DNA from: a virus
Length of the DNA: 64,000 bases
Direction: 5' to 3' (one strand)
Virus record (IMG/VR): IMGVR_UViG_3300037297_000066
Location: 186,001-250,000 of that record
In this document: in pieces, positions 1 to 62,724 of the stretch
Position numbering within the stretch: the first letter of the stretch is position 1
How the letters are laid out: the number at the start of each line of letters is the position of its first letter
The notes under the pieces: generated by a model
What the model was told of the DNA's origin: nothing
The model's input: the letters and a program-made list of their open reading frames with translations, nothing else
Database searches by the model: none
Translations under genes and position numbers: made by a program

Positions 1-518
1 TCGTACCCCAGAAAGTTCAGAATAGCTCGGGTGATGTCGTCTTGAAGGAAGCTCCGGCCTTGAGCGACTCGAAACTGGAGCTCCTCCGGTGAAAGCAAGT
101 GGCTCCCGGCCAACGCTAGCCTCTGGTACACCGCAACGTCCCACTCACCATCATCAGGACGGTACCACGTAGCCGCAGCGCCCAAGAAGTACTCCCCTAA
201 CCTAGAGCCCCCGTGGAATGCCTCCTCAACCGCCTCCACCAAATGCACGTACCGGGCCCCCGGCTCGCCTCGGAAGGGCCCCTCATAGGAAGGCCCCGAC
301 TCCTTCCTCGACAGCGCTTCCATGATGAAAGGCGTTAGAGGGATCGGGATCTGACTTAGATCCTGAGGGATCTCCCTTCCGCTGGAAGTGACCGCCCACA
401 CAGTGAAGACCCCTCCCTTTGGAACCACTTGGATCTCGTACCAGGAAGTCGAATCCTCGCTCTCGGCTACCCTGTACATATCCGTTCCCACCAGCTTGCT
501 GGAAGCGACGATCTTCAT
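1..518 (-). CDS. Array-family protein 1 (ND+CD), cut by window edge
   Basis: The gene runs off the left edge after about 172 codons. The N-domain has a strand-rich start and IPIPLTPFIMEAL near residues 57-69. The C-domain has WYRPDDGEWD, LSPEELQFR and FLQDDITRAIL. The ATG overlaps the stop of the upstream gene (ATGA). Function is unknown; this is one of at least 14 tandem relatives. Confidence 0.85.
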   Translation of the reverse strand, partial: MKIVASSKLVGTDMYRVAESEDSTSWYEIQVVPKGGVFTVWAVTSSGREIPQDLSQIPIPLTPFIMEALSRKESGPSYEGPFRGEPGARYVHLVEAVEEAFHGGSRLGEYFLGAAATWYRPDDGEWDVAVYQRLALAGSHLLSPEELQFRVAQGRSFLQDDITRAILNFLGY

Positions 519-1039
519 GCCTGCCCCCGAGCCCTACTCACCACCTCCACAATGGCTCGGGTGATAGCCTCTGGAGAGTAGGCGTTTTCATGAGACCGAC
601 GTAATTGCCGTTCTTGCTCCGTCAAGTCTAGATGGTAATGGCTGACAACGTATTGGTACACCTCAGGATCCCAATCAGAATCACTGGGGTAGTGCCACCT
701 TTCCGCAGCCAAGTAACCCCCCAAGTTGTGCCAGAGCTCCACCTCCCTCTCAACCACACTCACCAACAGGTCGTAGCCATACTCAGGACCCTGAGGGTCT
801 CCTTGGAAGACCCCCTGGTAAGGCCCAAGCTCCCCTTTCGACAAGCTCAGAGCTTCCAGAATGGAGGGCAGCAGGAACAACGGTATAGCCCCAATCCGGA
901 CAGGAGAGCCCCCCTCAAGGACCTCGTAGAGATACACCACCATCCCCACCCGGATCTGGTAGCTAACCCGAGAGGCTCTGCTCTCAGCCACCGTGTAGGT
1001 GTCTAAGCCCTCCACGGTCTCAACGCCAATGAGCTTCAC
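515..1039 (-). CDS. Array-family protein 2 (ND+CD)
   Basis: 174 residues. The N-domain opens MKLIGVE and contains IPLFLLPSILEAL; the C-domain contains WHYPSDSDWD, LTEQERQLR and YSPEAITRAIVEVV. The start is GTG, overlapping the upstream stop as GTGA, so it is probably translationally coupled to array protein 3. No catalytic motif or signal peptide is visible. Function unknown. Confidence 0.87.
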   Translation of the reverse strand: MKLIGVETVEGLDTYTVAESRASRVSYQIRVGMVVYLYEVLEGGSPVRIGAIPLFLLPSILEALSLSKGELGPYQGVFQGDPQGPEYGYDLLVSVVEREVELWHNLGGYLAAERWHYPSDSDWDPEVYQYVVSHYHLDLTEQERQLRRSHENAYSPEAITRAIVEVVSRARGQA

Positions 1040-1599
1040 GGTTCAGGCTCCCGTAGCCGTGTCACCACCTCCACCACAGCCCGGGTGATGCTTTCCTGAC
1101 CGTACGTCTTACCCCTTATCAACCGAAACCGACACTCCCCGTTGGTAAGTCGGTACATATCGTTGTTCACCACATAGAGGTATTGACTTCGAGTCCAGTC
1201 CGACCTCCGAGGGTTGACCCAGTTGTTGACAGTGCGAGAATGCCGGTAGGTACCAAGGCCGCTCGATCTCGACTGAGCAAAAGCCGCCTCCACTTGCCCG
1301 ACTAACCTTTTGTAACTCGCAGAACGATCCCCAGGCTCCTCCCCAAAGGACCCCACACAAGGGACCTGCTCGCCCCGGGTGGCCTCCAGGATGAACGGAG
1401 TCAGAAAGATCGGAATCGAGTTCAACCGGATTGGGTGCCCTTCCAAAGACGCCCAGTGCCACACCTGGTAGGACCCTCGCCCTCTTTCAGGGCCATCGGT
1501 CCGATAGACACGGATCTCGTAGCCCTCAGACTCAGACTCATCAACGGCTACCCGATAAGTGTCGAGACCGTCTTGCCTGTGCTTCCCAATGAAATGCAT
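1036..1599 (-). CDS. Array-family protein 3 (ND+CD), first gene of its unit
   Basis: 187 residues: IPIFLTPFILEA in the N-domain, SFGEEPGD in the linker, then GLGTYRHS, a W-rich stretch and YGQESITRAVVEVV in the C-domain. The ATG lies 7 nt after the TACGGT of an L-box that overlaps the end of the upstream gene. Proteins 2 and 1 probably follow on the same transcript. Function unknown. Confidence 0.87.
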   Translation of the reverse strand: MHFIGKHRQDGLDTYRVAVDESESEGYEIRVYRTDGPERGRGSYQVWHWASLEGHPIRLNSIPIFLTPFILEATRGEQVPCVGSFGEEPGDRSASYKRLVGQVEAAFAQSRSSGLGTYRHSRTVNNWVNPRRSDWTRSQYLYVVNNDMYRLTNGECRFRLIRGKTYGQESITRAVVEVVTRLREPEP

Positions 1600-1604
1600 C
1601 CATC

Positions 1605-2162
1605 CTACCGTACACCAAGAGACGCCCCAAACCGCCGACTAAGTACCTCCAGGACCGCTTGGGTGATCTCCGCTTGAGTGAACCGCATCCCCAGTCGAAG
1701 CCGAAACTGAACCTCTTCAGCTGTGAAAAAGTACCCCTCACTCATCGCTACCCCCCGGTAAGCCTCCTCACTCCACCCAACCTGGCCCGGCTCATACCAA
1801 TCCCCCTCAAACGTTCGGTAACTCCCCAACGCAACACCACTAGACTCACTCTCTTCCTCGATCATTTGAACCAGGGCAGCGTAGTCGGAGCTCCCCCCAC
1901 CCTCCCTAAAAGGGCCCTCCCCACACGGGGCAGGCTCAGCAGCCAACAACTGCAAAATGAACGTAACTAGTCCCTCGGGTAGCCAGTCTGCCGCCCCGAA
2001 GAAACGATTCCCACTCCGACGTTGAAGCACATCGAAATGCCTTCCTCCTTCTGAGCCCTTACGGCGAACCAAGATCTTGTAGGCAGTGGTGCCCGGCCCC
2101 TCCGAGACCTCACAAACCATCACGTGACCGCTGTTATTGAACTCGGTGATCCCAAAGCCCAC
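1605..2162 (-). CDS. Array-family protein 4 (ND+CD)
   Basis: 185 residues from a GTG at 2162, chosen because it sits 4 nt after the upstream stop, has GGGAG ahead of it, and gives the normal family length. The longer frame would run deep into the upstream gene. It has GEGPFREGG in the linker, GSYRTFEGDWYEPGQVGW, AEEVQFR and FTQAEITQAVLEVL. Function unknown. Confidence 0.82.
   Translation of the reverse strand: MGFGITEFNNSGHVMVCEVSEGPGTTAYKILVRRKGSEGGRHFDVLQRRSGNRFFGAADWLPEGLVTFILQLLAAEPAPCGEGPFREGGGSSDYAALVQMIEEESESSGVALGSYRTFEGDWYEPGQVGWSEEAYRGVAMSEGYFFTAEEVQFRLRLGMRFTQAEITQAVLEVLSRRFGASLGVR
1607..1616 (-). promoter_or_regulatory. L-box promoter of array protein 3
   Basis: GGTGTACGGT on the minus strand; TACGGT is 7 nt from the ATG, predicting a leaderless mRNA. 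Confidence 0.6.
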
Positions 2163-2166
2163 TACC

Positions 2167-2775
2167 TTACTCCCTACTGCGACGCTCGTACAACACGTCC
2201 AAAACAGCCTGGGCAATGTCCTCACGACTGTAGCCGTCCTGGTACGCAGTGGCATAGAAATTCAGCTCATCCGGCCGAAGCTGAACCGGGGGCCGCAGTG
2301 CCTCAAAGTAACCAGCCTGAGACCAATCAGGGTCGGAAAACATAACCCACCCACCCCCACGCCTGGGATACGCCCCCGTCACAGTCCCCACACTGACAGA
2401 CCTGTGCGCCCACAACCTCAAGTGCTCAAGGTCGAGATCGTTAGCATCGTACCCTGACTCACTACCATCCTCGTAGTCCCAGGCAGGCTCCCCTCTCCAC
2501 ACACCCTCAGGAATAGTGCCCTCCGGCACTCCCCCAGCCTCCTGACAAACCCAAAGGATCGATGTGAGCAGGCTCATGGGCCAAAACAGCTCCAACTCCC
2601 ACCCTTGGGGGGCCAACCGACGGATTTGAACCACCGGGGAACTCTTCGGGTCAACCTGAACCTCAACCCGGTACCTGCAGCTCGTGTCCTCGGACCACAC
2701 CACCTCACGTTGGTAGATCTGAGTGGCCCCCTCCTGCCTCGTGGAATCTCGTCCAGCGACTACAATCCAGGTCAC
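2167..2775 (-). CDS. Array-family protein 5, divergent member
   Basis: 202 residues and the most divergent full-length member. The N-domain core reads PMSLLTSILWVCQEAGG instead of IP.FL.PFIL. The C-domain keeps GAYPRRGGGWVMFSDPDWS, LRPDELNF and YSREDIAQAVLDVL. Its ATG overlaps the stop of protein 6 (ATGA). Function unknown. Confidence 0.82.
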   Translation of the reverse strand: MTWIVVAGRDSTRQEGATQIYQREVVWSEDTSCRYRVEVQVDPKSSPVVQIRRLAPQGWELELFWPMSLLTSILWVCQEAGGVPEGTIPEGVWRGEPAWDYEDGSESGYDANDLDLEHLRLWAHRSVSVGTVTGAYPRRGGGWVMFSDPDWSQAGYFEALRPPVQLRPDELNFYATAYQDGYSREDIAQAVLDVLYERRSRE

Positions 2776-3350
2776 TGACGCCCCCTACCGTGGCTCATCA
2801 AGCGTGCCTCAGTTTCCCGGAAGACCCGTATCCGAACCCGGTCACCAACGAAAGGCCCCTGACGAGTCAGCACGGCCACCCGAAACATACCCCGGTCCAA
2901 AACCCGGACCCATGCGTGGAAGAAGCCAGCATCGTTCACCCACATCGCTCGAACAATCCCGTAGAACTCTTGATACTCACGCCCACGAGCATCCACAAGG
3001 TAGTTTACTCCCTCCTCCCACTCGACGTGGCTCCCTAATGACTCACGCACCAGCGGCTCCTCCTCTACCCCCTGAACAGCCTGAGGGTCGGAAAACGCTC
3101 CCATCTGGTCCGGCCTACGAACCTCCGAGAACGCCTTCATGATGAAGGGCAACAACTTCTCTGGGATGGTATGAAGCACAATGCGGCGCCAGCTCATGTC
3201 CTGATCTTGAACGTAGACCTCGAATTGGTACGGGTGATGGATCTGGGTGGGAGAGTAAACCCACAGCTCGTACCGGGGCCAACCCTCCAGAGTCTCACCG
3301 ATCACGTAGACCGTTTTGACCCCCTCACACTGGGTGTCGAGAATATGCAC
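2772..3350 (-). CDS. Array-family N-domain fused to a different C-terminal domain
   Basis: 192 residues. Residues 1-85 are a normal family N-domain (YVIGETLEGW, IPEKLLPFIMKAF). From about residue 100 the C-domain is replaced by a V/R/F-rich stretch (AWVRVLDRGMFRVAVL, GPFVGDRVRIRVF) suggestive of a small beta-barrel, which is inference. GTG start, overlapping the upstream TAG by one base. It indicates domain shuffling within the array. Confidence 0.8.
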   Translation of the reverse strand: MHILDTQCEGVKTVYVIGETLEGWPRYELWVYSPTQIHHPYQFEVYVQDQDMSWRRIVLHTIPEKLLPFIMKAFSEVRRPDQMGAFSDPQAVQGVEEEPLVRESLGSHVEWEEGVNYLVDARGREYQEFYGIVRAMWVNDAGFFHAWVRVLDRGMFRVAVLTRQGPFVGDRVRIRVFRETEARLMSHGRGRQ

Positions 3351-4186
3351 TAGAACGGAACCTGCCTGTCGTGGATCGCCTGAATCACAGCCTCAGTGAT
3401 AGCCTCTTGGCCGTAGGCAGGTTCATGCTCATGCCTAAACCTACGCTCACCTCCGCTCAAAAAGATAGGGAGTATCTGGACCGTGCGCCGGTACTCACCA
3501 GGATCCCAAAGGATATTCCAAGCCGACATGAACTCCCCATCAACCAGAAGATAGTTTCCTAACCTCTGGCCTTCGTTCAAGGCCCTCTCAACCAACGCCC
3601 CCAATCGAACGGGGGGCTCAGTCTGAACAACAGGCTCGGGAATACGAGACGCCCCCACCACTTCCAAGATCGCTTCCGTGATCTCATCCTGGCTGAACAC
3701 CCTCCCATGGTCCCGCCGAAAACACTCCTCGGGAATGTCCGAGGCTCCTACACCATGCGTGTAAGCGTTCCGGTACTCAGCCTCATCCCAGTCGGAATCT
3801 CTAATCCCGTGCCAGACCTCGTCGGCATAATAACCCCCCAAATCCACCCCCCTCTCCAGGGCCTCACCCACCCGGTCCCTCAGGTAGGACAAGGCCCGAT
3901 CCAATGAGGCGGTGTGGCCCACCGGTTCCTGAAAGAGCTCTTCCTGGCAAGAAGTAGGCTGGCTCAGAGCTTGTAGGATGAACGGCACCAAGAAGAGAGG
4001 CACCATGTCGATCGGCTGAGAAACCCCTCTAACCGTAGCTCGATGACGCACCTGGTATGCATCCCCTTCCTCCGCAGGATCCAAAGGAGGAACTACCCAG
4101 ATCTCATACCAAGAAACAGAGTCCTCCCGCTCGGCCACTTTGAAGGCTTTCCCCTTGACGAGCTTCTGCAGCGGGATGAACAACAT
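3350..4186 (-). CDS. Array-family protein 7 with duplicated C-domain (ND+CD+CD)
   Basis: 278 residues. One N-domain (VPLFLVPFILQAL) is followed by two C-domains, each ending in an I-T-motif helix (FSQDEITEAILEVV and YGQEAITEAVIQAI). The ATG lies 6 nt after L-box TATGGT; the longer frame starts inside the promoter. Probably the first gene of a unit with proteins 6, 5 and 4. Function unknown. Confidence 0.88.
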   Translation of the reverse strand: MLFIPLQKLVKGKAFKVAEREDSVSWYEIWVVPPLDPAEEGDAYQVRHRATVRGVSQPIDMVPLFLVPFILQALSQPTSCQEELFQEPVGHTASLDRALSYLRDRVGEALERGVDLGGYYADEVWHGIRDSDWDEAEYRNAYTHGVGASDIPEECFRRDHGRVFSQDEITEAILEVVGASRIPEPVVQTEPPVRLGALVERALNEGQRLGNYLLVDGEFMSAWNILWDPGEYRRTVQILPIFLSGGERRFRHEHEPAYGQEAITEAVIQAIHDRQVPF

Positions 4187-4192
4187 GCCCTC

Positions 4193-4202
4193 ACCATACA
4201 CC
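4193..4202 (-). promoter_or_regulatory. L-box promoter of array protein 7
   Basis: GGTGTATGGT, then GAGGGC, then ATG. It fits in the 21-bp gap after protein 8. Confidence 0.65.
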
Positions 4203-4207
4203 ACAGG

Positions 4208-4756
4208 TCAAATCCCCATTCGCCTCAAAACCCTCAGGATGGCCTGCGTGATCTCATCCTGAAAGAAACTCCGACCCCACATGATCCGAAACCGGAGCTC
4301 ATCCAGGGAGGGATTATCACCGGCATCCTCAACCGTCTCCCGGTACTCGTCAGCGTCCCACCCCTCATCACCAGGAAAGAACCAGTCCCCTTGAAGGGAG
4401 CCCGTAGGATAGGCCCCCAAGGCAAGATCATCCTCTCCCAAAGCCCTCTCTACAGCTGTCTCCAAAGCGGACTCTGAAGTAACTTCCCCGCTGGAAGCCT
4501 CACCCCCGAAAGGCCCCTCTTTTACCGAAACACGCTCCCACTCCAACACCTGGAGCGCAAATGGTACCAAGCAGGCCGGAAGCCCCTTCAGAGGGACAAC
4601 CTGCCCATACCGTAACTGCTTGGCCGCATGTACCCGTAGACTGGTCTCGCTCTCAGCCGGACGAACCATCAGGTGGTACGGACCAGCGTCACCCTCTTCC
4701 TCCCCAATGAGGTAAACCCTACCTTGATGGGAGTGCTCAACCCCGATGATCTTCAT
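4208..4756 (-). CDS. Array-family protein 8 (ND+CD)
   Basis: 182 residues. The N-domain is MKIIGVE...YLIGEEEG...CLVPFALQVL, the linker EGPFGGEAS, and the C-domain GAYPTGSLQGDWFFPGDEGWD, LDELRFR and FFQDEITQAILRVL. It is acidic in the middle. The ATG overlaps the stop of protein 9 (ATGA). Function unknown. Confidence 0.87.
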   Translation of the reverse strand: MKIIGVEHSHQGRVYLIGEEEGDAGPYHLMVRPAESETSLRVHAAKQLRYGQVVPLKGLPACLVPFALQVLEWERVSVKEGPFGGEASSGEVTSESALETAVERALGEDDLALGAYPTGSLQGDWFFPGDEGWDADEYRETVEDAGDNPSLDELRFRIMWGRSFFQDEITQAILRVLRRMGI

Positions 4757-5343
4757 GTGTCCAAAAAGCTCCGAAGAATTTCGTCTATGACGGCCATAAT
4801 AGCCCGGGTGATCTCCTCCTGCGTAAACCGAGCCCCCTGAGTGAGCCGGAATACCACCTCCTCAGAGCTGAGCTGAGAGGGTCGCTCTCTCACAACCGCC
4901 AGGTACTCCTGGAGCTCCCACTGGGGAACCGTAAACCTAACCCATATAGGAGGCCCCATCCCGATCCGGTTGGAGTTGGAATAAGCCCCAAGCCACTGTC
5001 CCTGATGTATAACCTGAGCCACCTCGTGCCTCAATGCCCCCACATCAGGTGTGTAGTCCTCAGGCTCATCCCCAAACGCTCCCCCCTTGGGTAATCCGGA
5101 CCTCAACCCAAAATTGGTCACCTGCAGGATGAACGGGACGAGAAAGCTGGGAACCACTCCCAGGCGGTTAGGGGGACCCCCAGCGCCATTCTGATGAAAG
5201 ACCGCAAAGTGCTCCCTGTCACCCCCAGGGTTGTACACCCGGATCACGTAGACGTAGGGAGACTCATCATCCTCCGTTACCTTGTAGACAGCCGGGTTGA
5301 ACCCCGTCTCGGTGCCTTTACGCTCGGTACTGAGTATCCTCAC
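4753..5343 (-). CDS. Array-family protein 9 (ND+CD)
   Basis: 196 residues from a GTG exactly 6 nt after TATGGT (MRILSTERKG), matching the RIL start of proteins 11 and 13. Landmarks are VPSFLVPFILQV, GAFGDEPED, LSSEEVVFR and FTQEEITRAIMAVI. The longer ATG frame begins upstream of the promoter and is rejected. Function unknown. Confidence 0.87.
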   Translation of the reverse strand: MRILSTERKGTETGFNPAVYKVTEDDESPYVYVIRVYNPGGDREHFAVFHQNGAGGPPNRLGVVPSFLVPFILQVTNFGLRSGLPKGGAFGDEPEDYTPDVGALRHEVAQVIHQGQWLGAYSNSNRIGMGPPIWVRFTVPQWELQEYLAVVRERPSQLSSEEVVFRLTQGARFTQEEITRAIMAVIDEILRSFLDT

Positions 5344-5349
5344 TCCCCC

Positions 5350-5359
5350 ACCATACACC
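5350..5359 (-). promoter_or_regulatory. L-box promoter of array protein 9
   Basis: GGTGTATGGT, then GGGGGA, then GTG; the promoter sits in a 19-bp gap between genes. Confidence 0.65.
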
Positions 5360-5362
5360 AAA

Positions 5363-5920
5363 TCACCCCGGGCCCCGCCATTTCCCCACCACCTCCACAA
5401 TGGCTCGGGTGATCTCGTCTTGATTGAAGGTCCGGCCCCACTCTAACCGAAACCGGATCTCAGCCGAGGAACTCTCCTCCCCCCAGTTGATTACACGCTC
5501 TCGGTACTCATCAGGATCCCACTCTGGATCCTGATGATTGCGTCGTACCATCCAGCCGTCCTGCCGGGTGGTATCACGTATGTAATAGGACCCTAAATCT
5601 ACCCTATCCAAAACCCCCCTAACCGCCTCCAGGAGCTCCGAGTAGTCCCGGGTGGCCCATCCCTTAGCTTCCTCCCCAAACGCTCCCACAGGGGCAGTAG
5701 GGGGCCCTCCAAGCGCTTCCAGGATGAAGGGCAGCAAAAAGGACGGAGTCCGTTCTAGTTTTACACTGGGACCACCCCGAGAGTTACGACGGTAGGTAGC
5801 AAAGTGAGCCCCCATGGACGAACGAAGCACCTCAATCCGATAGGTCTCTTCAGATGCCTCGTCCTCGGCCAGAACATACAAAGTCGTGTCCCTACTCGGG
5901 AGCACCTCGATGATCCGCAT
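5363..5920 (-). CDS. Array-family protein 10 (ND+CD)
   Basis: 185 residues from the ATG at 5920 (a GTG directly upstream is also possible; GGGGAG precedes both). The N-domain is close to that of protein 12 (LAEDE.SEETYRIEV and RGGPSVK shared), a sign of recent duplication. C-domain: WDPDEYRERV and FNQDEITRAIVEVV. Function unknown. Confidence 0.86.
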   Translation of the reverse strand: MRIIEVLPSRDTTLYVLAEDEASEETYRIEVLRSSMGAHFATYRRNSRGGPSVKLERTPSFLLPFILEALGGPPTAPVGAFGEEAKGWATRDYSELLEAVRGVLDRVDLGSYYIRDTTRQDGWMVRRNHQDPEWDPDEYRERVINWGEESSSAEIRFRLEWGRTFNQDEITRAIVEVVGKWRGPG

Positions 5921-5929
5921 CACTCTCCC

Positions 5930-6727
5930 CTACCTGGCACGACCCAGCAGCCCCTGCACCACCAAGTCGGTGATCAATGCCTGGCTATGCCCAAAGCCGT
6001 TTTCACTGCGGAACTGACGCTCCTCCCGAGTCAGATTGTGGGTAAAATAGGTGGCTGTGTGCCGATACCGCTCAGCATCCCAGACAGCATCCTCAGGGTA
6101 AGTCCACACCCCCTCATTATCGCTCGGGTAGGCCCCCAAAGGCACACCCTCGTTCAAAGCGTCGAAAACCCGGGTTCGGAGCGGGGCCTCCTGCCCAGAT
6201 CCTTCAGAATTAGGCCCACGAGCCTGAGCCTGCTCCAGCACAACCTCCACAACCGCCTCCGTAATGGCCTCCTGGGTTAACATCTGGCCGGGGTGGAGCC
6301 TAAATTGGATCTCATTGTCAGCAAGATGGTAGCCCTCGTTCAAACTCACACGCCGGTACTCGTTGGCATCCCACCTGGGATTGCTGGGCATTATCCACCC
6401 AGAATCAGGAGGCCCGGTCTGATAGGTCCCAAAACCAACACCTGTGTCCCTGATCAACCGAACCAGATCCGAAGGGTCCCCCGAAAGGGACTCCCCCGAG
6501 AACTCACTCCCCACCCGAGCCCGAGTGGAAACCACTTCCAGAATGAACGGAAGCAAAGCCACCGGGATGGTCTGGAGCCTTACACAGTCCTCCCGCTCGC
6601 AACGGTAGATCTCTAAAAAGCTGTTTTCCTGATAAAAACATAGCTCGTATTTCGGCCGGCAATCCGGACCCTCCCCAATCACGTAGATCTTAGAAGTCCC
6701 CCTTCGCCTGGTGTCGAGTATCCTCAC
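5930..6727 (-). CDS. Array-family protein 11 with duplicated C-domain (ND+CD+CD)
   Basis: 265 residues from a GTG 6 nt after L-box TATGGT. The N-domain contains IPVALLPFILEVV. Two C-domains follow: WDANEYRRV with LTQEAITEAVVEVV, and WDAERYRHT with HSQALITDLVVQGL, joined by a polar linker. Protein 10 follows after 9 nt. Function unknown. Confidence 0.88.
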   Translation of the reverse strand: MRILDTRRRGTSKIYVIGEGPDCRPKYELCFYQENSFLEIYRCEREDCVRLQTIPVALLPFILEVVSTRARVGSEFSGESLSGDPSDLVRLIRDTGVGFGTYQTGPPDSGWIMPSNPRWDANEYRRVSLNEGYHLADNEIQFRLHPGQMLTQEAITEAVVEVVLEQAQARGPNSEGSGQEAPLRTRVFDALNEGVPLGAYPSDNEGVWTYPEDAVWDAERYRHTATYFTHNLTREERQFRSENGFGHSQALITDLVVQGLLGRAR

Positions 6728-6733
6728 TCCCCC

Positions 6734-6743
6734 ACCATACACC
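6734..6743 (-). promoter_or_regulatory. L-box promoter of array protein 11
   Basis: GGTGTATGGT, then GGGGGA, then GTG. Confidence 0.65.
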
Positions 6744-6746
6744 GAC

Positions 6747-7619
6747 TTACCCCGGGCTCGAACCAGAGTCCGTGCCCCCAATAATCCCGCTCTCCCGCAA
6801 CTCCTCCACCACAGCCCGGGTGATGGCCTCACTCCCATAGCTCGAAATAGCACCCCTGAACCGTCGCTCCCCTTCGCTCAAATCTACGTTGGAATGACGG
6901 GCCACCCGCTCATAAACCTCAGATACCCAGCACACCATCTCAGGGGTAACCCATTGACCGTTCAGAGATAGATAGGACCCTAGGGATACCCCAGAGCTCA
7001 AAGCTTCACTCACCCTGGCCCTCAACATCCCAAGGGAAGGCGCCTCCTCCACACTCCTATCCCTCCACCGGGGCTCAGCCAGTACCTCCACAATGGCCCG
7101 AGTGATCTCATCCTGGCCAAAGGTCCGGCCCCACAAAAGTCGGAACTCTAGCTCCTCAGGTGAAAGCTCGGCCCCAGACTCGGAAACATAGTCTAGGTAC
7201 TCTGCCTCGTCCCACCCAGGATCGTCCCTGTAGCGAAACGTATACCCCGGTCGCTGCTCTGGCCTAGGAACCGGATAGCTCCCAAGGTAAGGGCCCTCCT
7301 CCAAAGCTGCTCTCGCTACCTCCAAAAGCTCCTGGTAGTCGTGGGTGACCCAACCCCTAGGCTCTTCCCCAAACGCCCCAGTCGGGAACCCGAAGCCATC
7401 CCCGAGCACCTGAAGCACACAAGGCATCAGGAAGGAAGGGACATGCTCCATTTTCACACTGGGACCCCCACGGGCCTGACGGCAGTAGACAGCGAAGTAA
7501 AGCGTTCCCCTCGCACCCCTCATTACCTCAATCCGATAGGTCTCCTCAGACTCCTCGTCCTCAGCCAGTCTGTAGTGGGTCCTATTCTCACCCCGGATGG
7601 TGTCGATGACCCGTAGCAT
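6747..7619 (-). CDS. Array-family protein 12 with duplicated C-domain (ND+CD+CD)
   Basis: 290 residues from the ATG 6 nt after TATGGT. The N-domain contains VPSFLMPCVLQVL and GAFGEEPRGW. The first C-domain has LSPEELEFR and FGQDEITRAIVEVL; the second has LSEGERRFR and YGSEAITRAVVEEL. The N-domain is most like protein 10 and the three-domain layout is like protein 11. Function unknown. Confidence 0.88.
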   Translation of the reverse strand: MLRVIDTIRGENRTHYRLAEDEESEETYRIEVMRGARGTLYFAVYCRQARGGPSVKMEHVPSFLMPCVLQVLGDGFGFPTGAFGEEPRGWVTHDYQELLEVARAALEEGPYLGSYPVPRPEQRPGYTFRYRDDPGWDEAEYLDYVSESGAELSPEELEFRLLWGRTFGQDEITRAIVEVLAEPRWRDRSVEEAPSLGMLRARVSEALSSGVSLGSYLSLNGQWVTPEMVCWVSEVYERVARHSNVDLSEGERRFRGAISSYGSEAITRAVVEELRESGIIGGTDSGSSPG

Positions 7620-7625
7620 GCCCCC

Positions 7626-7635
7626 ACCATACACC
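7626..7635 (-). promoter_or_regulatory. L-box promoter of array protein 12
   Basis: GGTGTATGGT, then GGGGGC, then ATG. Confidence 0.65.
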
Positions 7636-7641
7636 AGAACC

Positions 7642-8190
7642 TCAGGGGAACGTCCCCACTCGCTCCCCCAAGAGCAGGAGAACCTCCCGGGTGATCTCCT
7701 CCTGCGTAAACCGAGCCCCATGGCGAAGCCGAAACCGAACCTCCTCCGGCGTGAGTAGATTCCCCCAATACTGAACTACCCTCTCGTACTCCTCAGAATC
7801 CCACCCCTCACGCCCGGGCTCGGACCACCCCCCTCCATGGACCCTCTGGTAGCTCCCTAGCTCTACCCCCACCTCCTGGAAAAACTCCTCAACCAGCTGG
7901 GCCAGAGAGTCCGGGCCCTCAGGAGCGTCTAGAAATGGGCCCTCATAAGCCCCAGGGTCCTCCCCCATGGCCTGTAGGACAAAAGGCACCAGTCTGAATG
8001 GAACGGCCTTCAACTCTACCCACGCAACCCCAAAATCGCTCCGATAGTAGATGTGGACAAACCCGAGCTCCTGAGTGGAAGGGGCCGGACGTACCCAAAT
8101 CCGAAACAGAATGGGAGAACCCTCGCTCTCCCCTACCGTGTGGACGAAAGTCAGGTCCTCAGACCGCTGCTCGACCTTGAGAATGCGCAC
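7642..8190 (-). CDS. Array-family protein 13 (ND+CD)
   Basis: 182 residues from a GTG 6 nt after TATGGT (MRILKVEQ). The N-domain ends VPFRLVPFVLQAM; the linker is YEGPFLDAPEG; the C-domain has WDSEEYERV, LTPEEVRFR and FTQEEITREVLLLL. It forms its own unit, with a hairpin element upstream. Function unknown. Confidence 0.87.
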   Translation of the reverse strand: MRILKVEQRSEDLTFVHTVGESEGSPILFRIWVRPAPSTQELGFVHIYYRSDFGVAWVELKAVPFRLVPFVLQAMGEDPGAYEGPFLDAPEGPDSLAQLVEEFFQEVGVELGSYQRVHGGGWSEPGREGWDSEEYERVVQYWGNLLTPEEVRFRLRHGARFTQEEITREVLLLLGERVGTFP

Positions 8191-8196
8191 CCCTTC

Positions 8197-8206
8197 ACCA
8201 TACACG
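8197..8206 (-). promoter_or_regulatory. L-box promoter of array protein 13
   Basis: CGTGTATGGT (first base off consensus), then GAAGGG, then GTG. Confidence 0.55.
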
Positions 8207-8226
8207 AGCACACCCCCACTCCTCCA

Positions 8227-8266
8227 GGGGGAAGAACCCTTGCGGGATGAGAAGAGTCCTTCCCCC
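8227..8266 (-). terminator. Hairpin element, copy 1
   Basis: GGGGGAAG pairs with CTTCCCCC across about 24 nt, and the stem can extend by three weaker pairs. The core TTGCGGGATGAGAAG (plus-strand reading) recurs at 9309-9323. It lies downstream of the 8494-9245 operon on the minus strand and just before the next promoter, so termination is likely. There is no long U-tract. Confidence 0.4.
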
Positions 8267-8307
8267 TCCAACTTGACCCTTTAACCCAAACCTGTGAGAA
8301 TTGGCCC

Positions 8308-8514
8308 ATGGCCCCAAAACCTGACCTGGCCTCAGTCTTCAAGGCGCTAGACGCTCACGACCTGCCCTTCCTGTCCAATATGGGCCAAAGCACCGCCCAC
8401 CTCCTGGACGAGAATAACCCCAACGGGGTGGTCGTCCTCCGGGATGAGAGAGGAAATGACCGCCTCTACATGCCCCGTAGCGTCTGGGATGAGCTACGAG
8501 CTGGCAGATGCTAG
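8308..8514 (+). CDS. Small hypothetical protein, opposite to the array
   Basis: 68 residues, charged, with VVVLRDERGNDRLYMPRSVWDEL near the C-terminus. It is the only plus-strand candidate in the first 11 kb and its end overlaps the C-domain-only gene by 21 bp. GAGAAT lies 6 nt before the ATG, a weak promoter match. It is plausible from composition but not recognised. Confidence 0.45.
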   Translation: MAPKPDLASVFKALDAHDLPFLSNMGQSTAHLLDENNPNGVVVLRDERGNDRLYMPRSVWDELRAGRC

Positions 8515-8829
8515 CGAGTTCAGAATCTCTGCCACAATGGCATCGGAGATCTCCTCCTGGTCGTAATACCGCCCCCAAACAAAGCGGAACTGAAGTTCAC
8601 CATCTAGCAATAGACTGGGAGCCTCTGCAACCGTGTCCAGATAGTCAACTAAACTCCACCCACCCGTAGCTGGAGTCACCAGGGGGAAGTCTTCCCCTTC
8701 CCCCTCAGATCCATAGAACTGACCAAGCTCTACCCCATTTTCCAAGGCTTGTTTCACCGAAGCCTGAAGATCCCCATCAAGAGTCGTGTCAATAGAGTCA
8801 TCAAACGGACCCTTAGGCAAAACCAGCAT
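8494..8829 (-). CDS. Array-family C-domain-only protein
   Basis: 111 residues. It begins around the GPF linker (LPKGPFDDS) and holds only the C-domain: GQFYGSEGEG, DGELQFRFVWGRYYDQEEISDAIVAEIL. The whole N-domain is missing. The ATG overlaps the stop of the 8829-9245 gene (ATGA). It is a solo domain or a truncated relative; the intact start and coupling favour a working gene. Confidence 0.8.
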   Translation of the reverse strand: MLVLPKGPFDDSIDTTLDGDLQASVKQALENGVELGQFYGSEGEGEDFPLVTPATGGWSLVDYLDTVAEAPSLLLDGELQFRFVWGRYYDQEEISDAIVAEILNSLASASS

Positions 8830-9651: not shown

Positions 9652-9657
9652 ACCCTC

Positions 9658-9667
9658 ACCGTACACC
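9658..9667 (-). promoter_or_regulatory. L-box promoter of the 9394-9651 gene
   Basis: GGTGTACGGT, then GAGGGT, then ATG. Confidence 0.6.
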
Positions 9668-10686: not shown

Positions 10687-10692
10687 GTCTCT

Positions 10693-10719
10693 ATTACACG
10701 TGAGAGGGTTGGATCTTAA
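10693..10719 (-). promoter_or_regulatory. T-box promoter of the 10453-10686 gene
   Basis: TTAAGATC-N13-TGTAAT, 6 nt before ATG. Confidence 0.65.
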
Positions 10720-10735
10720 CCCGGGCTCCTCGGAA

Positions 10736-11059: not shown

Positions 11060-11065
11060 GCCCTT

Positions 11066-11092
11066 ATTACACGTGAGGGGCTCCGATCTTAA
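11066..11092 (-). promoter_or_regulatory. T-box promoter of the 10736-11059 gene
   Basis: TTAAGATC-N13-TGTAAT, 6 nt before ATG. It is divergent from the T-box at 11128-11154, about 36 bp away. Confidence 0.65.
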
Positions 11093-11127
11093 CCCGGGCC
11101 CCTTTCAAAAAATCAGAGACGGCTGGG

Positions 11128-12263: not shown

Positions 12264-12294
12264 TGGGTTCCTTTCAGGTGTGGAGCCTACTTCT

Positions 12295-12321
12295 ACTACA
12301 CGTGAGGGGGCTGGATCTTAA
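12295..12321 (-). promoter_or_regulatory. T-box promoter with a leader
   Basis: TTAAGATC-N13-TGTAGT, with a 31-nt leader and SD before the ATG at 12263. This case supports the box being a promoter rather than a ribosome-binding element. Confidence 0.68.
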
Positions 12322-12324
12322 CCC

Positions 12325-12525
12325 TCACCGGAAGGTAACACTCCGACGCCTCTTGCACTCGACCAGAAGGCCCGCTGCCGACAGCTTCCGGAGGTAGCGG
12401 ATGGCCACCTCTCGGGAGGGGAGGCCCAAGGCTCTCCTGGCATCATGAGCCGTGAAGGGCCTGTCCGGGTAGACGCCTCGGAGGAAGTCAGCGTTCCGGG
12501 CGTCGTCCTGGGTTACCTTGGCCAT
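12325..12525 (-). CDS. Winged-helix DNA-binding protein
   Basis: 66 residues: FTAHDARRALGLPSREVAIRYLRKLSAAGLLVECKRRRSVTFR, a typical helix-turn-helix followed by a basic wing. ATG 6 nt after a T-box. Probably a small transcription regulator; target unknown. Confidence 0.75.
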   Translation of the reverse strand: MAKVTQDDARNADFLRGVYPDRPFTAHDARRALGLPSREVAIRYLRKLSAAGLLVECKRRRSVTFR

Positions 12526-12531
12526 GCCCTT

Positions 12532-12558
12532 ATTACACGTGAGGGGGTTGGATCTTAA
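12532..12558 (-). promoter_or_regulatory. T-box promoter of the 12325-12525 gene
   Basis: TTAAGATC-N13-TGTAAT, then AAGGGC, then ATG. Confidence 0.65.
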
Positions 12559-12577
12559 CCCTGATCGGAGAGAGGGG

Positions 12578-12769: not shown

Positions 12770-12775
12770 GCCCCT

Positions 12776-12802
12776 ATTACACGTGAGGGGGTTGGATCTT
12801 AA
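12776..12802 (-). promoter_or_regulatory. T-box promoter of the 12578-12769 gene
   Basis: TTAAGATC-N13-TGTAAT, then 6 nt to ATG. Confidence 0.65.
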
Positions 12803-12815
12803 CCCTGAACGTAGT

Positions 12816-13263: not shown

Positions 13264-13269
13264 GCCCCT

Positions 13270-13296
13270 ATTACACGTGAGGGGGGCCGATCTTAA
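13270..13296 (-). promoter_or_regulatory. T-box promoter of the 12940-13263 gene
   Basis: TTAAGATC-N13-TGTAAT, then AGGGGC, then ATG. Confidence 0.65.
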
Positions 13297-13434
13297 CCCG
13301 GCCCGTGGGTATAAAAACAGGCCCGACCCGAGACCCGAAGCACCCATAACTCCCCGTATGGGGGCCTCGGATCGGGGGAAAAACGGGGTGAATTTTCGAC
13401 CGGGGTTCGATATCAGAAATAGCCTGGCCCGGGG

Positions 13435-29237: not shown

Positions 29238-29597
29238 ATGGGCAAAACAAGGATAGACTATCACGGTGGGGCGTCGAAAGAGGTATCCACCAAGGTTTGG
29301 TACCTAGAGGATATCCCCGACACTACCTTTTACCGTCAGCTGGAAGAGAGGGTTCGTCCGTTGGTGTACGTCCTACGTCAGCACGGTATCAACACTGAGA
29401 GCTCCTGTCACCACAGGGGGTACATTCAAGTTGATGGGAGTGCGTTCTCAAACAACGTCCATTTTTCTAGGGAGCTGTACTTCGCAATGTACGAGGTTAA
29501 CTGCCTACCCTACAACGTTCGGTGTGAACGGTACGTGGATGAGACGGGCCACTTCCACGAGATTTGCCGTATCCAGAGCGAGTTGTTGAAGATTTGA
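29238..29597 (+). CDS. Hypothetical protein, 119 residues
   Basis: VLRQHGINTESSCHHRGYIQVDGSAF and a final CRIQSELLKI. The HGINTxSSCxxRGYI segment is a compact loop between strands; the cysteine and histidines might bind metal. SD is weak. Not recognised. Confidence 0.7.
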   Translation: MGKTRIDYHGGASKEVSTKVWYLEDIPDTTFYRQLEERVRPLVYVLRQHGINTESSCHHRGYIQVDGSAFSNNVHFSRELYFAMYEVNCLPYNVRCERYVDETGHFHEICRIQSELLKI

Positions 29598-29617
29598 GGC
29601 TCGTGTTCCAACCTCTC

Positions 29618-29627
29618 GGTGTATGGT
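29618..29627 (+). promoter_or_regulatory. L-box promoter of the 29633-30499 gene
   Basis: GGTGTATGGT, 5 nt before ATG. Confidence 0.65.
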
Positions 29628-29632
29628 GGGGC

Positions 29633-49231: not shown

Positions 49232-49714
49232 ATGCCAATCAGAGCCTACGCCATTCCAGGGAGGTGTTGCGAACAAGCCATCGTGGTGTGGTCTACAGTC
49301 CTAGGCCCTTCTGACTTCAAACAATCTAACTGGGGAGGCCAACCTTTTTTCACAGGCTGCATCAAAGGCAAGTTCGAGCAGGGCATGCAAGAGACACTGG
49401 GTTGGATGAAGCTCAAAGGTCTAGAGGTTGTTCCTGATAGCTACATCAACTTTGTGTTTCAGCGGCAGGAAGAACCTTGGGGAGATAGATCGCTCAAAGA
49501 CACTCTAGTAGCAGAAGCGAAAGGCAGCTTGGGAGAGAGACGTTTCGACATTGTGGACCGAGCCTGGCAAATACTGGATACGGAGGCTAGCGTACGTCTA
49601 CGACCTCCAGAGCCAGGCAAAACACCCTCAAGTTCCCGAGGGGCTGCTATGGAGGCTTTCGGGTTGCCTGATGGTTTGGAAGTATCGATCTTGGCTAGGA
49701 CCATCGAACCATGA
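49232..49714 (+). CDS. Paralogue of the previous gene without signal peptide
   Basis: 160 residues: GPSDFKQSNWGG...GCIKGKFEQGMQETLGWMKLKGLE...FVFQRQEEPWG aligns with 48653-49219 throughout, but the Tat-like signal is absent (MPIRAYAIPGRCCEQ). A cytoplasmic/exported pair is implied. Its stop overlaps the nucleoside-hydrolase start (ATGA). Confidence 0.74.
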   Translation: MPIRAYAIPGRCCEQAIVVWSTVLGPSDFKQSNWGGQPFFTGCIKGKFEQGMQETLGWMKLKGLEVVPDSYINFVFQRQEEPWGDRSLKDTLVAEAKGSLGERRFDIVDRAWQILDTEASVRLRPPEPGKTPSSSRGAAMEAFGLPDGLEVSILARTIEP

Positions 49715-50613
49715 CTGACTTCATCTTCGATTGTGAGACCGGGGACCCGGACGACATTCTCACCGTTATCCTGCTCGCTACGCACCCTAGGAGCCGTCTC
49801 AGGGCCGTTACGGTAACCCCGGGGACCCGAGGCCAGGTCGGGGTCGTAAAGCACGTCTTGGGGCTCCTAGGGCTCCCCAAGGTGCCAGTGGGGTCAGCCA
49901 AGCCGGACCACCCCAAGAACTGCGTCTCGGATTTCCACTACCACTGGCTTGGAAGGGATATTCCGGACGCTGAGCCGGATGGTTACGGCTACGAAATCAT
50001 CCACGACGTTCTGGTGCCTCCGCCGGGGCTCATCGTGGAGGATTACGGCCCGAGAGGAGAAATCGAGCCCGTCACCATTGTGACAGGGGCTCCTCTCACG
50101 AACATCTGGGAGGCTATCAAGCACGGGGTTCGTATTCCCAGCATCTACATCCAGGGAGGATTCGCCGGAGACAACCTGGTGGCCCCTGAGGACCGGCTAG
50201 AGAAGTTTGCTGGGAAGACGACGGTAGCCACCTGGAACCTGGGAGGCAACTCTAAGGCAGCGGAGGGGGTTCTTGCTTCTGGCTTGGTAGGAGAACGACA
50301 CCTAATCGGGAAGAACATCTGTCACGGAGTGACCTACACGGCCGAACTTCACGAGAAGGTCAAGCAGGTCGATCACCTGGAGGTGTTGGCCTCAGCAATG
50401 ACCTCTTATCGGGCTCGTCACAGTCACAACAAGGCGCTCCACGATCCTCTGGCAGCATGCACAGCCCTTGACCCAAGCATCTGTACGTTCGTCGAAGCCC
50501 AGGTCTACCGGGAGAAGGGGCAGTGGGGATCCCGAGCTATGGCTGGGACTGACACTTGGGTAGCGGTCAAGCATGACCAAGAGCGGTTCGAGCAAGTGTT
50601 CCTGGGAGGCTGA
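49711..50613 (+). CDS. Nucleoside-hydrolase-like protein
   Basis: 300 residues. FDCETGDPDD (residues 6-15) is the metal-binding acidic motif of inosine/uridine-preferring nucleoside N-ribohydrolases. ATHPRSRLRAVTVTPG, IVTGAPLTNIWEAIK, YIQGGFAGDN and KALHDPLAACTALDP match the later family motifs in order. These enzymes cleave N-glycosidic bonds of ribonucleosides; NAD-related substrates occur in relatives. Substrate not decided. Confidence 0.85.
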   Translation: MTDFIFDCETGDPDDILTVILLATHPRSRLRAVTVTPGTRGQVGVVKHVLGLLGLPKVPVGSAKPDHPKNCVSDFHYHWLGRDIPDAEPDGYGYEIIHDVLVPPPGLIVEDYGPRGEIEPVTIVTGAPLTNIWEAIKHGVRIPSIYIQGGFAGDNLVAPEDRLEKFAGKTTVATWNLGGNSKAAEGVLASGLVGERHLIGKNICHGVTYTAELHEKVKQVDHLEVLASAMTSYRARHSHNKALHDPLAACTALDPSICTFVEAQVYREKGQWGSRAMAGTDTWVAVKHDQERFEQVFLGG

Positions 50614-54598: not shown

Positions 54599-54605
54599 CC
54601 TCCTC

Positions 54606-54629
54606 ACCATACACCAACTGGTGTATGGT
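54606..54629. promoter_or_regulatory. Face-to-face L-box palindrome
   Basis: ACCATACACC-AACT-GGTGTATGGT, a perfect 10-bp palindrome with 4 central bases. Each arm is the promoter of the gene it points away from (54598 minus, 54635 plus). Both promoters cannot be occupied at once. Confidence 0.75.
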
Positions 54630-54634
54630 GTACC

Positions 54635-55552: not shown

Positions 55553-56299
55553 GTGAGCCTCCCTGATCTGAGAGTAGAGAAAGCCTACATCCTCCACCGG
55601 GAAGACTACCCCATCAACGCTGTGGCCAGTACGGCCTTGCACGGTTTCCAGGAGCTGGGGATTGAGACGGCCCCCATCCACGGATTTGGGGACATCCAGG
55701 AGCTAACAGACCTGGGGCCCACTGTGATGGTGGAAGGGTGGCTCCAAACCGTCTGGGAGGCCCTGGAGAGGGTGGGTATCAAACCCCCTCCTCCCCTCGA
55801 CTACCCAGAGGAGCTGAGACCATTTCTAGGGAGAGATCTCTGGAAGGATACTCTGGGGAACGTCCGACGAGGAGTTCAGAAGGTCTTCGTCAAACCTGTG
55901 AAGGCCAAACTTTTCACCGGAGTCATATGGGACGGGGGCTGGGAAGCTCGTCGAAGAACAGTGACTTGCGACGACTCCACCGAGGTCTGGGTAGCCTCTA
56001 CTCTTGAGTTCAAGGCTGAGTTTCGGGCCTTTGTTCTGGATGGCCGGTTGCTGGATGTACGGAGGTACAAGGGGGATTGGTGGCACTCGCCTTCTCGAAA
56101 GGTGGTCGAGGCCGCCGTGAAACGCTACAAATCTGCCCCACGAGCCTATTGCCTAGATTTCGGCGTGACGAAAGACCGGTTCACCTGTCTGGTGGAAGCC
56201 AATGACGGATACGCCTTCGGGCACTACGGACTGCACCACGTCCTTCTGGCCAGGATGCTAGCTGCCAGGTGGGAGGAACTCACCAATTCACTTGTGTAG
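55553..56299 (+). CDS. ATP-grasp family protein (R2K-like)
   Basis: 248 residues. The late part EFRAFVLDGRLLDVRRYKGDW...YCLDFGVTKDRFTCLVEANDGYAFGHYGL matches the ATP-grasp R-x2-K/DUF4343-type pattern: R then K on adjacent strands, D and N for metal. FVKPVKAKLFTGVI is the first lysine strand. Such enzymes ligate a carboxyl group to an amine using ATP. Target unknown. Confidence 0.72.
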   Translation: MSLPDLRVEKAYILHREDYPINAVASTALHGFQELGIETAPIHGFGDIQELTDLGPTVMVEGWLQTVWEALERVGIKPPPPLDYPEELRPFLGRDLWKDTLGNVRRGVQKVFVKPVKAKLFTGVIWDGGWEARRRTVTCDDSTEVWVASTLEFKAEFRAFVLDGRLLDVRRYKGDWWHSPSRKVVEAAVKRYKSAPRAYCLDFGVTKDRFTCLVEANDGYAFGHYGLHHVLLARMLAARWEELTNSLV

Positions 56300-61104: not shown

Positions 61105-61316
61105 CCTGGTCTTGCCCGACCTGTGGAGCTCGGCACAACGATCCTCCCATCTGGGTAGTCCCGGTAGCCTTTGTTGGGGACCATCGTTCCATCTTCTACT
61201 GCTGTCAGTGTGATGCCCAGATCTGTATCCGTTGCTACGTGGAGCACACTGAGAAACAACACCCAAGACGATTCACCAGTTGGTTGGGACAAGACCGGAA
61301 GCGCCGGAAGTTCTAG
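61101..61316 (+). CDS. B-box-like zinc protein
   Basis: 71 residues: CPTCGARHND, then FYCCQCDAQICIRCYVEHTEKQHPR, a C-C/C-C/H pattern like B-box zinc fingers; basic tail. ATGA overlap with the gene before. Probably protein-protein contact. Confidence 0.76.
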   Translation: MTWSCPTCGARHNDPPIWVVPVAFVGDHRSIFYCCQCDAQICIRCYVEHTEKQHPRRFTSWLGQDRKRRKF

Positions 61317-62257
61317 GTCCTCCAGCTCGGAGGGAACTCGCTTTGTCCCCGAAGGAGATTCTGGTCTAGCTCAACGAGCTCCAGGTAGTCCTCTACGGTG
61401 TCGAACTCTTTCATTGCGTCGGGACCGTAGTAGGCCCCCGCCAGAGCTCCCGTGATGGCGGCATTGGTGTCAGTGTCCCCTCCTCCATGCACGGCCATGT
61501 GGACGGCATCCTTGAAGCTCTCTGTAGCCAGGAAGCAGTAAAAGGCGGCCGGCACTGATTCCGTGACACAAGCCCCCGTTCCCATGTCTATTAAAGTGGC
61601 CAAAGAGGACTCCTTACGAGCCTTTATGGCCGCTGTTCGGACACCTTTGACCACTTTGTACAGGTGCTCGTTCTGCAGCTGGAAGGCTCTGGACACCAGG
61701 TGGTGGTCGAGCGTTTCCAACACGTAGGCCGGGACATCCTGTTTCTGGATCCCAAGCCGGGCGTAGAAGACTCCCAAGGCCACGATTGCCGCTCCGATCT
61801 TGGCCTCCATACTGTCGTGGGTCAAAGCTGAATCTTGGGAGGCTACTGCGATGATCTTGTTCGGGTCTCGGAAAAACATCCCAATGGGGGCGGCCCTCAT
61901 AGCAGATCCATTGCCTTTCGACCCTTTGATTCCTGGGTCAGGGTACCCTCGCAGTATCCGTCGAAGAGCGTGGTTGGTGGTGTCTCCGATCCCTCGGAGA
62001 TCTTTAGACTTGTACCACTCAAGGTAGCTCTGGCTGACCTCGTGGGGATCAAACTCGTTGCATTGCAACAAACTTTGAGCCAAGGCCCGAGCCATCTTGG
62101 TATCATCGGTCCACTGGCCAGCTTTCAAGTTAGCGTTGATGGGGCTGACGCTGTCTCGGAATCGCCCATCCCAGTTCATCAGGTTTTTGCCCGTGAAGTG
62201 GTGAGTCTCGAAGGGCATTCCGAGAGCATCCCCAATGGCTAGTCCGAGTACGCTCAT
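61313..62257 (-). CDS. ADP-ribosylglycohydrolase family protein
   Basis: 314 residues from MSVLGLAIGDALG with GAGGAGTC as SD. GLAIGDALGMPFE, GQWTDDTKMA, KGNGSAMRAAPIG, THDSMEAKIGAAIVAL and GGGDTDTNAAITGALAGAYYG are the DraG/ADPRH motifs in order, with the acidic residues that bind two magnesium ions. Family members remove ADP-ribose from proteins or nucleic acid, or cleave ADP-ribose compounds. Confidence 0.94.
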   Translation of the reverse strand: MSVLGLAIGDALGMPFETHHFTGKNLMNWDGRFRDSVSPINANLKAGQWTDDTKMARALAQSLLQCNEFDPHEVSQSYLEWYKSKDLRGIGDTTNHALRRILRGYPDPGIKGSKGNGSAMRAAPIGMFFRDPNKIIAVASQDSALTHDSMEAKIGAAIVALGVFYARLGIQKQDVPAYVLETLDHHLVSRAFQLQNEHLYKVVKGVRTAAIKARKESSLATLIDMGTGACVTESVPAAFYCFLATESFKDAVHMAVHGGGDTDTNAAITGALAGAYYGPDAMKEFDTVEDYLELVELDQNLLRGQSEFPPSWRT

Positions 62258-62295
62258 GGAAGACTCCTCAAAGTCGATCTCCAATTTTGTCAAAC

Positions 62296-62305
62296 GGTGT
62301 ACAGT
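62296..62305 (+). promoter_or_regulatory. L-box promoter of the 62311-62724 gene
   Basis: GGTGTACAGT, 5 nt before a GTG. Confidence 0.64.
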
Positions 62306-62310
62306 AAGGC

Positions 62311-62724
62311 GTGGCTCTAGGCAAGTACGGTACTCACGGGATTCAGTGTGTTTGTGGAGCGGTAGAACAACTAGCAACACTCGGCAAACACCGGTACGAC
62401 AGACAGCCCCAACAATACCTTCCCAAAGGCTGGTCTCGATGGGGCTGGAAGTACTTTCTCTGTGACAAGTGTTCCGAAAACAAGGACCTCCTGGAAGAAC
62501 TGCATCACTCCTACGTATCCCTCAGTATCAAATCAAACTCAGGGTCCTGGTGTGTAGATCTGGTCGAAGGCGGAGTGAACCTCTGCAAAGAGGAGACCGT
62601 TGTGCTTCGAGTGGAGCCTCGGGAGCCTGTGGTTTACCTTCTGGGGGAACCTTTCGACGGAGGCGTGGAGGAAGCTTTAGCGTCTTCCTTGGCCAAGAGC
62701 TGGTTGGCTGAGAACGGAGGCTGA
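62311..62724 (+). CDS. Hypothetical protein with CxC...CxxC
   Basis: 137 residues, GTG start. IQCVCGAVEQL and FLCDKCSENKD make a likely zinc site; CVDLVEGGVNLC and VVLRVEPREPVVYLL are strands. First of a run toward the window end. Not recognised. Confidence 0.72.
   Translation: MALGKYGTHGIQCVCGAVEQLATLGKHRYDRQPQQYLPKGWSRWGWKYFLCDKCSENKDLLEELHHSYVSLSIKSNSGSWCVDLVEGGVNLCKEETVVLRVEPREPVVYLLGEPFDGGVEEALASSLAKSWLAENGG

Follow-up and report, generated by a model that had tools for sequence, protein, structure and literature searches.

A tandem array of two-domain genes

The window analysed here is a 64,000-nucleotide stretch of DNA comprising bases 186,001–250,000 of the 437,331-bp IMG/VR virus record G000. 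Its first 8829 nucleotides carry 14 related genes on the minus strand. A usual gene of this kind encodes one N-domain, a disordered linker with a conserved Phe-centred peptide, and one helical C-domain. The genes and the accompanying promoter-like elements are as follows (window coordinates; N and C give the i-Evalues of the N- and C-domain profile matches).

1–518, minus strand: N-C member, truncated at the left edge of the window (complete gene 185982–186518 of the record); N 3.8e-19, C 1.0e-24
515–1039, minus strand: N-C member, overlapping the next gene by 4 bp; N 4.2e-16, C 2.8e-26
1036–1599, minus strand: N-C member with an unusually basic C-domain; N 2.4e-21, C 1.6e-25
1605–2171, minus strand: N-C member, ORF open from 2255, start probably near 2165–2171; N 1.5e-12, C 1.8e-27
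1606–1616, minus strand: GGTGTAnnGTR promoter-like element, upstream of 1036–1599
2167–2775, minus strand: N-C member whose N-domain is of the 'MAW...WP' type found in the left array; N 7.0e-14, C 8.4e-22; best N match 180707
2772–3350, minus strand: N-domain gene with an OB-like C-terminus; N 1.2e-11, no C; RsgA_N E = 0.009
3350–4186, minus strand: N-C-C member; N 7.4e-18, C 1.1e-25 and 1.4e-15
4192–4202, minus strand: GGTGTAnnGTR promoter-like element, upstream of the 3350–4186 start
4208–4756, minus strand: N-C member; N 7.7e-16, C 3.7e-25
4753–5343, minus strand: N-C member, ORF open from 5400, start probably at 5343; N 5.1e-19, C 7.4e-25
5349–5359, minus strand: GGTGTAnnGTR promoter-like element, upstream of the 4753–5343 start
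5363–5923, minus strand: N-C member, used for the first structure model (AF2 mean pLDDT 87.6); N 1.0e-22, C 9.6e-25
5666–5686, minus strand: linker peptide G-A-F-G-E-E-A with the conserved F, residues 80–86 of the 5363–5923 gene
5930–6727, minus strand: N-C-C member, ORF open from 6853, start probably at 6727; N 1.9e-16, C 1.1e-21 and 1.9e-19
6733–6743, minus strand: GGTGTAnnGTR promoter-like element, upstream of the 5930–6727 start
6747–7619, minus strand: N-C-C member, closest copy of 5363–5923 (57% N, 48% C)
7625–7635, minus strand: GGTGTAnnGTR promoter-like element, upstream of the 6747–7619 start
7642–8190, minus strand: N-C member; N 5.8e-20, C 1.7e-26
8494–8829, minus strand: gene with a C-domain only, closing the array on the right; C 2.3e-16

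All 14 genes listed in a preliminary description of this DNA are present, and their kinship is confirmed by N- and/or C-domain profile matches with i-Evalues of 1e-11 to 1e-27. In a shuffled proteome five times as large, the same profile matched nothing below E = 0.04. The shared plan of an N-domain followed by a single C-domain, as given there, applies to most of them; 2772–3350 has no C-domain, and 3350–4186, 5930–6727, and 6747–7619 carry two. These 14 genes are the right-hand end of the array only. The array continues past the left edge of the window, as had been proposed, for another ~36 kb. It spans ~150.2 to 194.8 kb of the record, with every gene on the minus strand, and its ~50 diverged copies take up ~45 kb, or ~10% of the 437-kb genome.

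An iterated profile search over all open reading frames (ORFs) of the record collected 55 members. A confident N- or C-domain match is present in 48 of them, while the other seven are weak and possibly partly wrong. The confident members comprise 34 N-C, three N-C-C, eight C-only, and three N-only genes. When the record was searched separately with the A1 profile, 51 stretches matched, all of them in open frames; the three flagged stops are the ends of the genes themselves. Many neighbouring array genes overlap by exactly 4 bp, an arrangement that resembles translationally coupled operons. Gene starts were called automatically and some are uncertain; several ORFs extend upstream of the conserved N-domain start, and the probable start is often preceded by a GGTGTAnnGT element.

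Protein architecture and predicted structure

AlphaFold2 models of two members that are ~20% identical (mean pLDDT 87.6 and 87.5) share one two-domain plan. The N-domain is predicted to be a four-stranded antiparallel sheet with one helix, to which the second model adds a fifth short strand. The C-domain is predicted to consist of a helix, a short hairpin, and three further helices. The pTM values are low (0.54 and 0.53), and the relative placement of the domains is therefore not predicted. Linker residues 77–89 in the model of 5363–5923 have pLDDT below 50 and are predicted to be disordered.

The most conserved positions (G111, W135, Y140, Y113, P60, Y28, and L97) look structural. No catalytic-looking set of His, Cys, Asp, or Lys is found among the conserved positions of the family, and the array proteins are probably non-enzymatic. 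E155, R159, and T172 are also highly conserved and could be functional, so that an enzymatic role is conceivable. The proteins are small and mostly acidic, with a mean pI of 5.4 versus 7.2 for the other genes, and the mean net charge is −2.4 for N-domains and −5.3 for C-domains.

Apart from the usual plan, the array contains N-C-C, C-only, and N-only genes, genes with a helical N-terminus, and one with an OB-like C-terminus. Specifically, the sheet domain is replaced in two genes by helical N-termini that are related to each other (mutual BLAST 9e-8), and the C-terminus of 2772–3350 is called OB-like from a weak RsgA_N match that lies below Pfam's cut-off. N-terminal types (sheet, helical, or absent) are thus combined around the linker with C-terminal types (one, two, OB-like, or absent).

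The GPF/GAFGEEP linker noticed earlier is real, and its version in the left part of the array is S-x-F-x-E-x-S-V; S/G-x-F-x-E-x-S-V-like linkers occur there in 19 genes. Of 33 aligned members, 30 retain the linker Phe despite the predicted disorder, and the motif is retained even in N-only, C-only, and helical-N genes. The amino acids of the linker are conserved while their codons vary synonymously, indicating selection on the short peptide; a DNA-level recombination seam as the source of the conservation is ruled out by the same variation.

Genomic setting and a promoter-like element

G000 is a jumbo myovirus record, in agreement with the phage-like genome proposed from the window. One co-oriented module contains the genes for its terminase, portal, head-maturation protease, and major head protein. 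The late part (~297–437 kb plus 0–37 kb; 177 kb) is mostly colinear with the 452-kb related record G004, and the middle of the record, including the array, is poorly conserved among relatives. By terminase, the closest named phage is LR745208.1, an uncultured huge phage (46% identity). The terminase of Tunturiibacter phage Tunturi_5, an acidobacterial jumbo phage, is 28% identical to that of G000. These two phages and 22 IMG/VR contigs belong to the same broad terminase lineage as G000.

The element GGTGTAnnGTR occurs 34 times in the window (0.44 expected) and 79 times in the genome, with no copy in the 177-kb late module. All 16 copies in the array region are oriented along the genes, and an ATG or GTG lies within 16 nt of 65 of the 79 copies. 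Related records have 4–9 copies each. Judged from its position, we read GGTGTAnnGTR as a promoter-like element of non-late genes, and its distribution supports a predicted non-late expression of the array.

Evolutionary history

Mean identity between copies is 20% for N-domains and 25% for C-domains, and the closest pair is 57% (N) and 48% (C) identical in amino acids. Similarity is slightly higher between neighbours (Mantel rho −0.23 for N and −0.13 for C), and the N and C distances are only weakly congruent (rho 0.23). Both observations fit tandem duplication followed by long divergence with some exchange. For the closest pairs, pS is 0.57–0.77 and pN/pS is 0.4–0.7. These values indicate old copies whose synonymous sites are nearly saturated, and purifying selection on them. 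A recent gene-accordion amplification is ruled out by this near-saturation and by the lack of near-identical copies.

Search for relatives

The preliminary description recognised no known family in these proteins, and profile searches likewise placed them in none. Pfam, PHROGs, NCBIfam, PADLOC, and PDB sequences gave no above-threshold profile match, only weak matches of single members. PADLOC, a library of defence proteins, gave no match, and no known anti-defence homologue was found for the family; both results count against the counter-defence role proposed below. Comparison of the predicted structures with known folds, which had been suggested at the outset, gave no convincing match: Foldseek returned nothing at E ≤ 0.001 against PDB and BFVD, and the best PDB match had E 0.07, 62 aligned columns, and TM 0.24.

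A tblastn search of phage and plasmid records gave no match of note (one chance match, E = 8). Pattern scans, which detect only fairly close relatives, found nothing in IMG/VR viral contigs (single members and the A2 profile), in bacterial genome contigs (A3), or at 80 phage loci around DUF5662 relatives. The family is also absent from the 21 virus records of the same terminase lineage that were searched, some of them fragments, with the window's own record as the positive control. The complete ORF sets of G004 and G012 and the first 400 kb of G011 contain neither the family nor a comparably large array; their largest paralogue families have 4–8 members, some HNH-like by eye. With no sequence relative in anything searched, the array appears to be lineage-specific.

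Tandem paralogue families in giant phages are already known. The only lead that we found in the literature on large phage paralogue arrays is SPN3US, whose paralog family B has 20 members, largely tandem and all head proteins, and a copy number that varies between phages (PMC5694885). The array is more than twice the size of this virion family, the largest tandem phage paralogue family that we found. What is new here is the size of the array, its non-late setting, its modular plan, and the lack of any sequence relative or PDB/BFVD fold relative found.

Proposed role of the array

We tentatively propose, with a probability of about 0.45, that the array encodes a diversified, non-enzymatic set of host-binding proteins serving in counter-defence or takeover. 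This reading is inferred from the non-late setting, the conserved scaffold, the diverse surfaces, and the shared linker peptide. It is also favoured by the position of the array in a poorly conserved part of the genome and by genes further along the window, among them those for an ADP-ribosylglycohydrolase, an R2K ATP-grasp protein, and a nucleoside hydrolase. The proteins would be expressed from polycistronic runs, separately from the late (virion) programme. Each of the two folded modules would act as a scaffold, with variable surfaces that recognise different host proteins, and the linker peptide would dock on a single partner common to the family. Such a repertoire of host-takeover or counter-defence binders may have arisen by duplication, divergence, and the swapping of modules.

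Pressure for diversity against host factors, the explanation first offered for the expansion, is plausible in view of the non-late setting, the old, intact, and diverged copies, the restriction to one lineage, and the module swapping. However, the closest copies show purifying selection and nearly saturated synonymous sites, so that the array is no recent arms-race accordion.

Copy-number gain of phage anti-defence genes has precedents. T4 tifA is an anti-defence gene present in multiple copies (PMC9391042), and SegB-driven amplification is reported as a further case (PMC13096335). Compared by description only, the T4 dmd-tifA system resembles the array in that it involves small phage inhibitor proteins whose copy number rises under defence pressure (PMC9391042), but its amplified copies are recent tandem repeats, whereas the array copies are old and at most 57% identical.

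A more specific version of the host-binding reading, which we regard as rather unlikely, is a combinatorial host-targeting repertoire. Here the ~50 genes would be cassettes of an interchangeable N-module, a constant F-x-E-x-S-V docking peptide, and one or more interchangeable C-modules; the peptide would recruit one shared phage or host machine, and the modules would choose the targets. A protease, a chaperone, or a polymerase are examples of such a machine. If the copies do bind different host proteins, the array would offer ~50 natural inhibitors ready for use, and it would allow ideas on what giant phages do with their additional coding capacity to be tested.

Alternative explanations

The main rival, which we disfavour as unlikely, is that the array encodes virion head (inner-body or ejected) proteins, namely paralogues that are packaged with the DNA, injected, and possibly processed at the linker by the prohead protease. 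The closest documented precedent, SPN3US family B, consists of head proteins (PMC5694885), and it too is a big set of strongly diverged paralogues, most of them in tandem, from a jumbo myovirus; the disordered linker of the array proteins also has an F-x-E-like motif. However, hhalign detects no profile similarity to family B (probability 0.1%), whose members are ~270–500-aa proteins of the virion head, whereas the array has ~50 members with a two-domain plan and non-late promoter-like elements. The array shows no sign of being encoded and regulated together with late or structural genes: it lies far from the late module, on the opposite strand. The presence of GGTGTAnnGTR in the array and its absence from the late module argue against head proteins.

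Giant-phage proteases cut after Glu at A/S/G-x-E (PMC5694885), but the invariant residue of the linker is Phe and the position of Glu is not fixed, and we therefore rejected prohead-protease cleavage as the main reading of the linker. No such cleavage motif is seen near the N-terminus of the G000 major head protein. The inner-head proteins of phiKZ/SPN3US paralog family A (pfam12699) are similar in that each giant phage has several paralogues in differing copy number. They are cleaved by the prohead protease, whereas the array family has no fixed cleavage-type motif and no PF12699 match.

Less likely still is a relaxed, largely dispensable expansion, in which a duplication-prone locus produced drifting copies, few of them needed, as filler in a large genome. 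The greater likeness of neighbouring copies is what tandem duplication predicts, and the C-only and N-only fragments suit this explanation as well. Nevertheless, the profile matches lie in open frames, and pN/pS stays well under 1. In addition, the predicted fold persists at 20–25% identity, and the linker peptide is conserved against synonymous variation.

It is also quite improbable that the copies are nucleic-acid-binding proteins, with an N-domain like the Whirly, PUR, and PC4 ssDNA- or RNA-binding folds, that regulate different host or phage genes. The order of strands and helices in the N-domain does resemble that of these folds, and Foldseek lists a human PURA chain at a low rank (E = 1.5, probability 0.08), but there is no significant fold match. 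Most nucleic-acid binders are not acidic like the array domains, although acidic DNA mimics would still fit. Least probable is that the proteins are scaffolding or structural parts of an intracellular phage compartment, or of some other assembly built from many related subunits. Operon-like runs of numerous related, acidic two-domain proteins would suit such a role, but assembly components are usually conserved, and none of the related records searched in the terminase lineage has the family.

A promoter-like element in the non-late region

Across the record, 79 copies of a promoter-like element, GGTGTAnnGTR, were found, 34 of them in the window. The copies are distributed over record 37–296 kb, and none is present in the 177-kb late module of the record. 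The start codon usually follows about 10 nt after the element, and some sites form back-to-back divergent pairs (window 54605/54620 and 60306/60321). GGTGTAnnGTR is rare in related records.

Example GGTGTAnnGTR sites (window)
4192–4202
5349–5359
9657–9667
54605–54630

A longer intergenic repeat, GGGTTAAGATCnnnnnCCCTCACGTGTAATAnGGGCATG, occurs in about 40 copies at record 64–271 kb. It looks like the GGTGTAnnGTR promoter class with an extra upstream box.

GGGTTAAGATCnnnnnCCCTCACGTGTAATAnGGGCATG-type repeats (window, among others; repeat families D2/D3/D10)
10688–10729
11061–11102
12290–12331
12527–12568
12771–12812
13265–13306

ARAGORN predicts a tRNA-Gly (gcc) at window 29528–29628, overlapping a GGTGTAnnGTR element. 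At 101 nt, the call is unusually long for tRNA-Gly and may be intron-containing or false.

Other genes

Three further window genes lie in this non-late region.

61313–62380, ADP-ribosylglycohydrolase
55553–56299, R2K-clade ATP-grasp protein
49711–50613, inosine-uridine nucleoside hydrolase

In the paralogue array, the minus-strand gene at window 2772–3350 carries an OB-like C-terminus (window 2772–3038), which replaces the usual C-domain behind the N-domain and weakly matches RsgA_N (E=0.009). Near its left end, the array also contains a DUF5662 gene (record 151546–152046, L011:11546–12046; Pfam E=1.6e-38), a family widespread among phage contigs.

An apparent GroEL-like chaperonin gene, judged by eye, is located at record 307963–309684 (L024:7963–9684), with a 61% identical homologue in the related 452-kb record G004.
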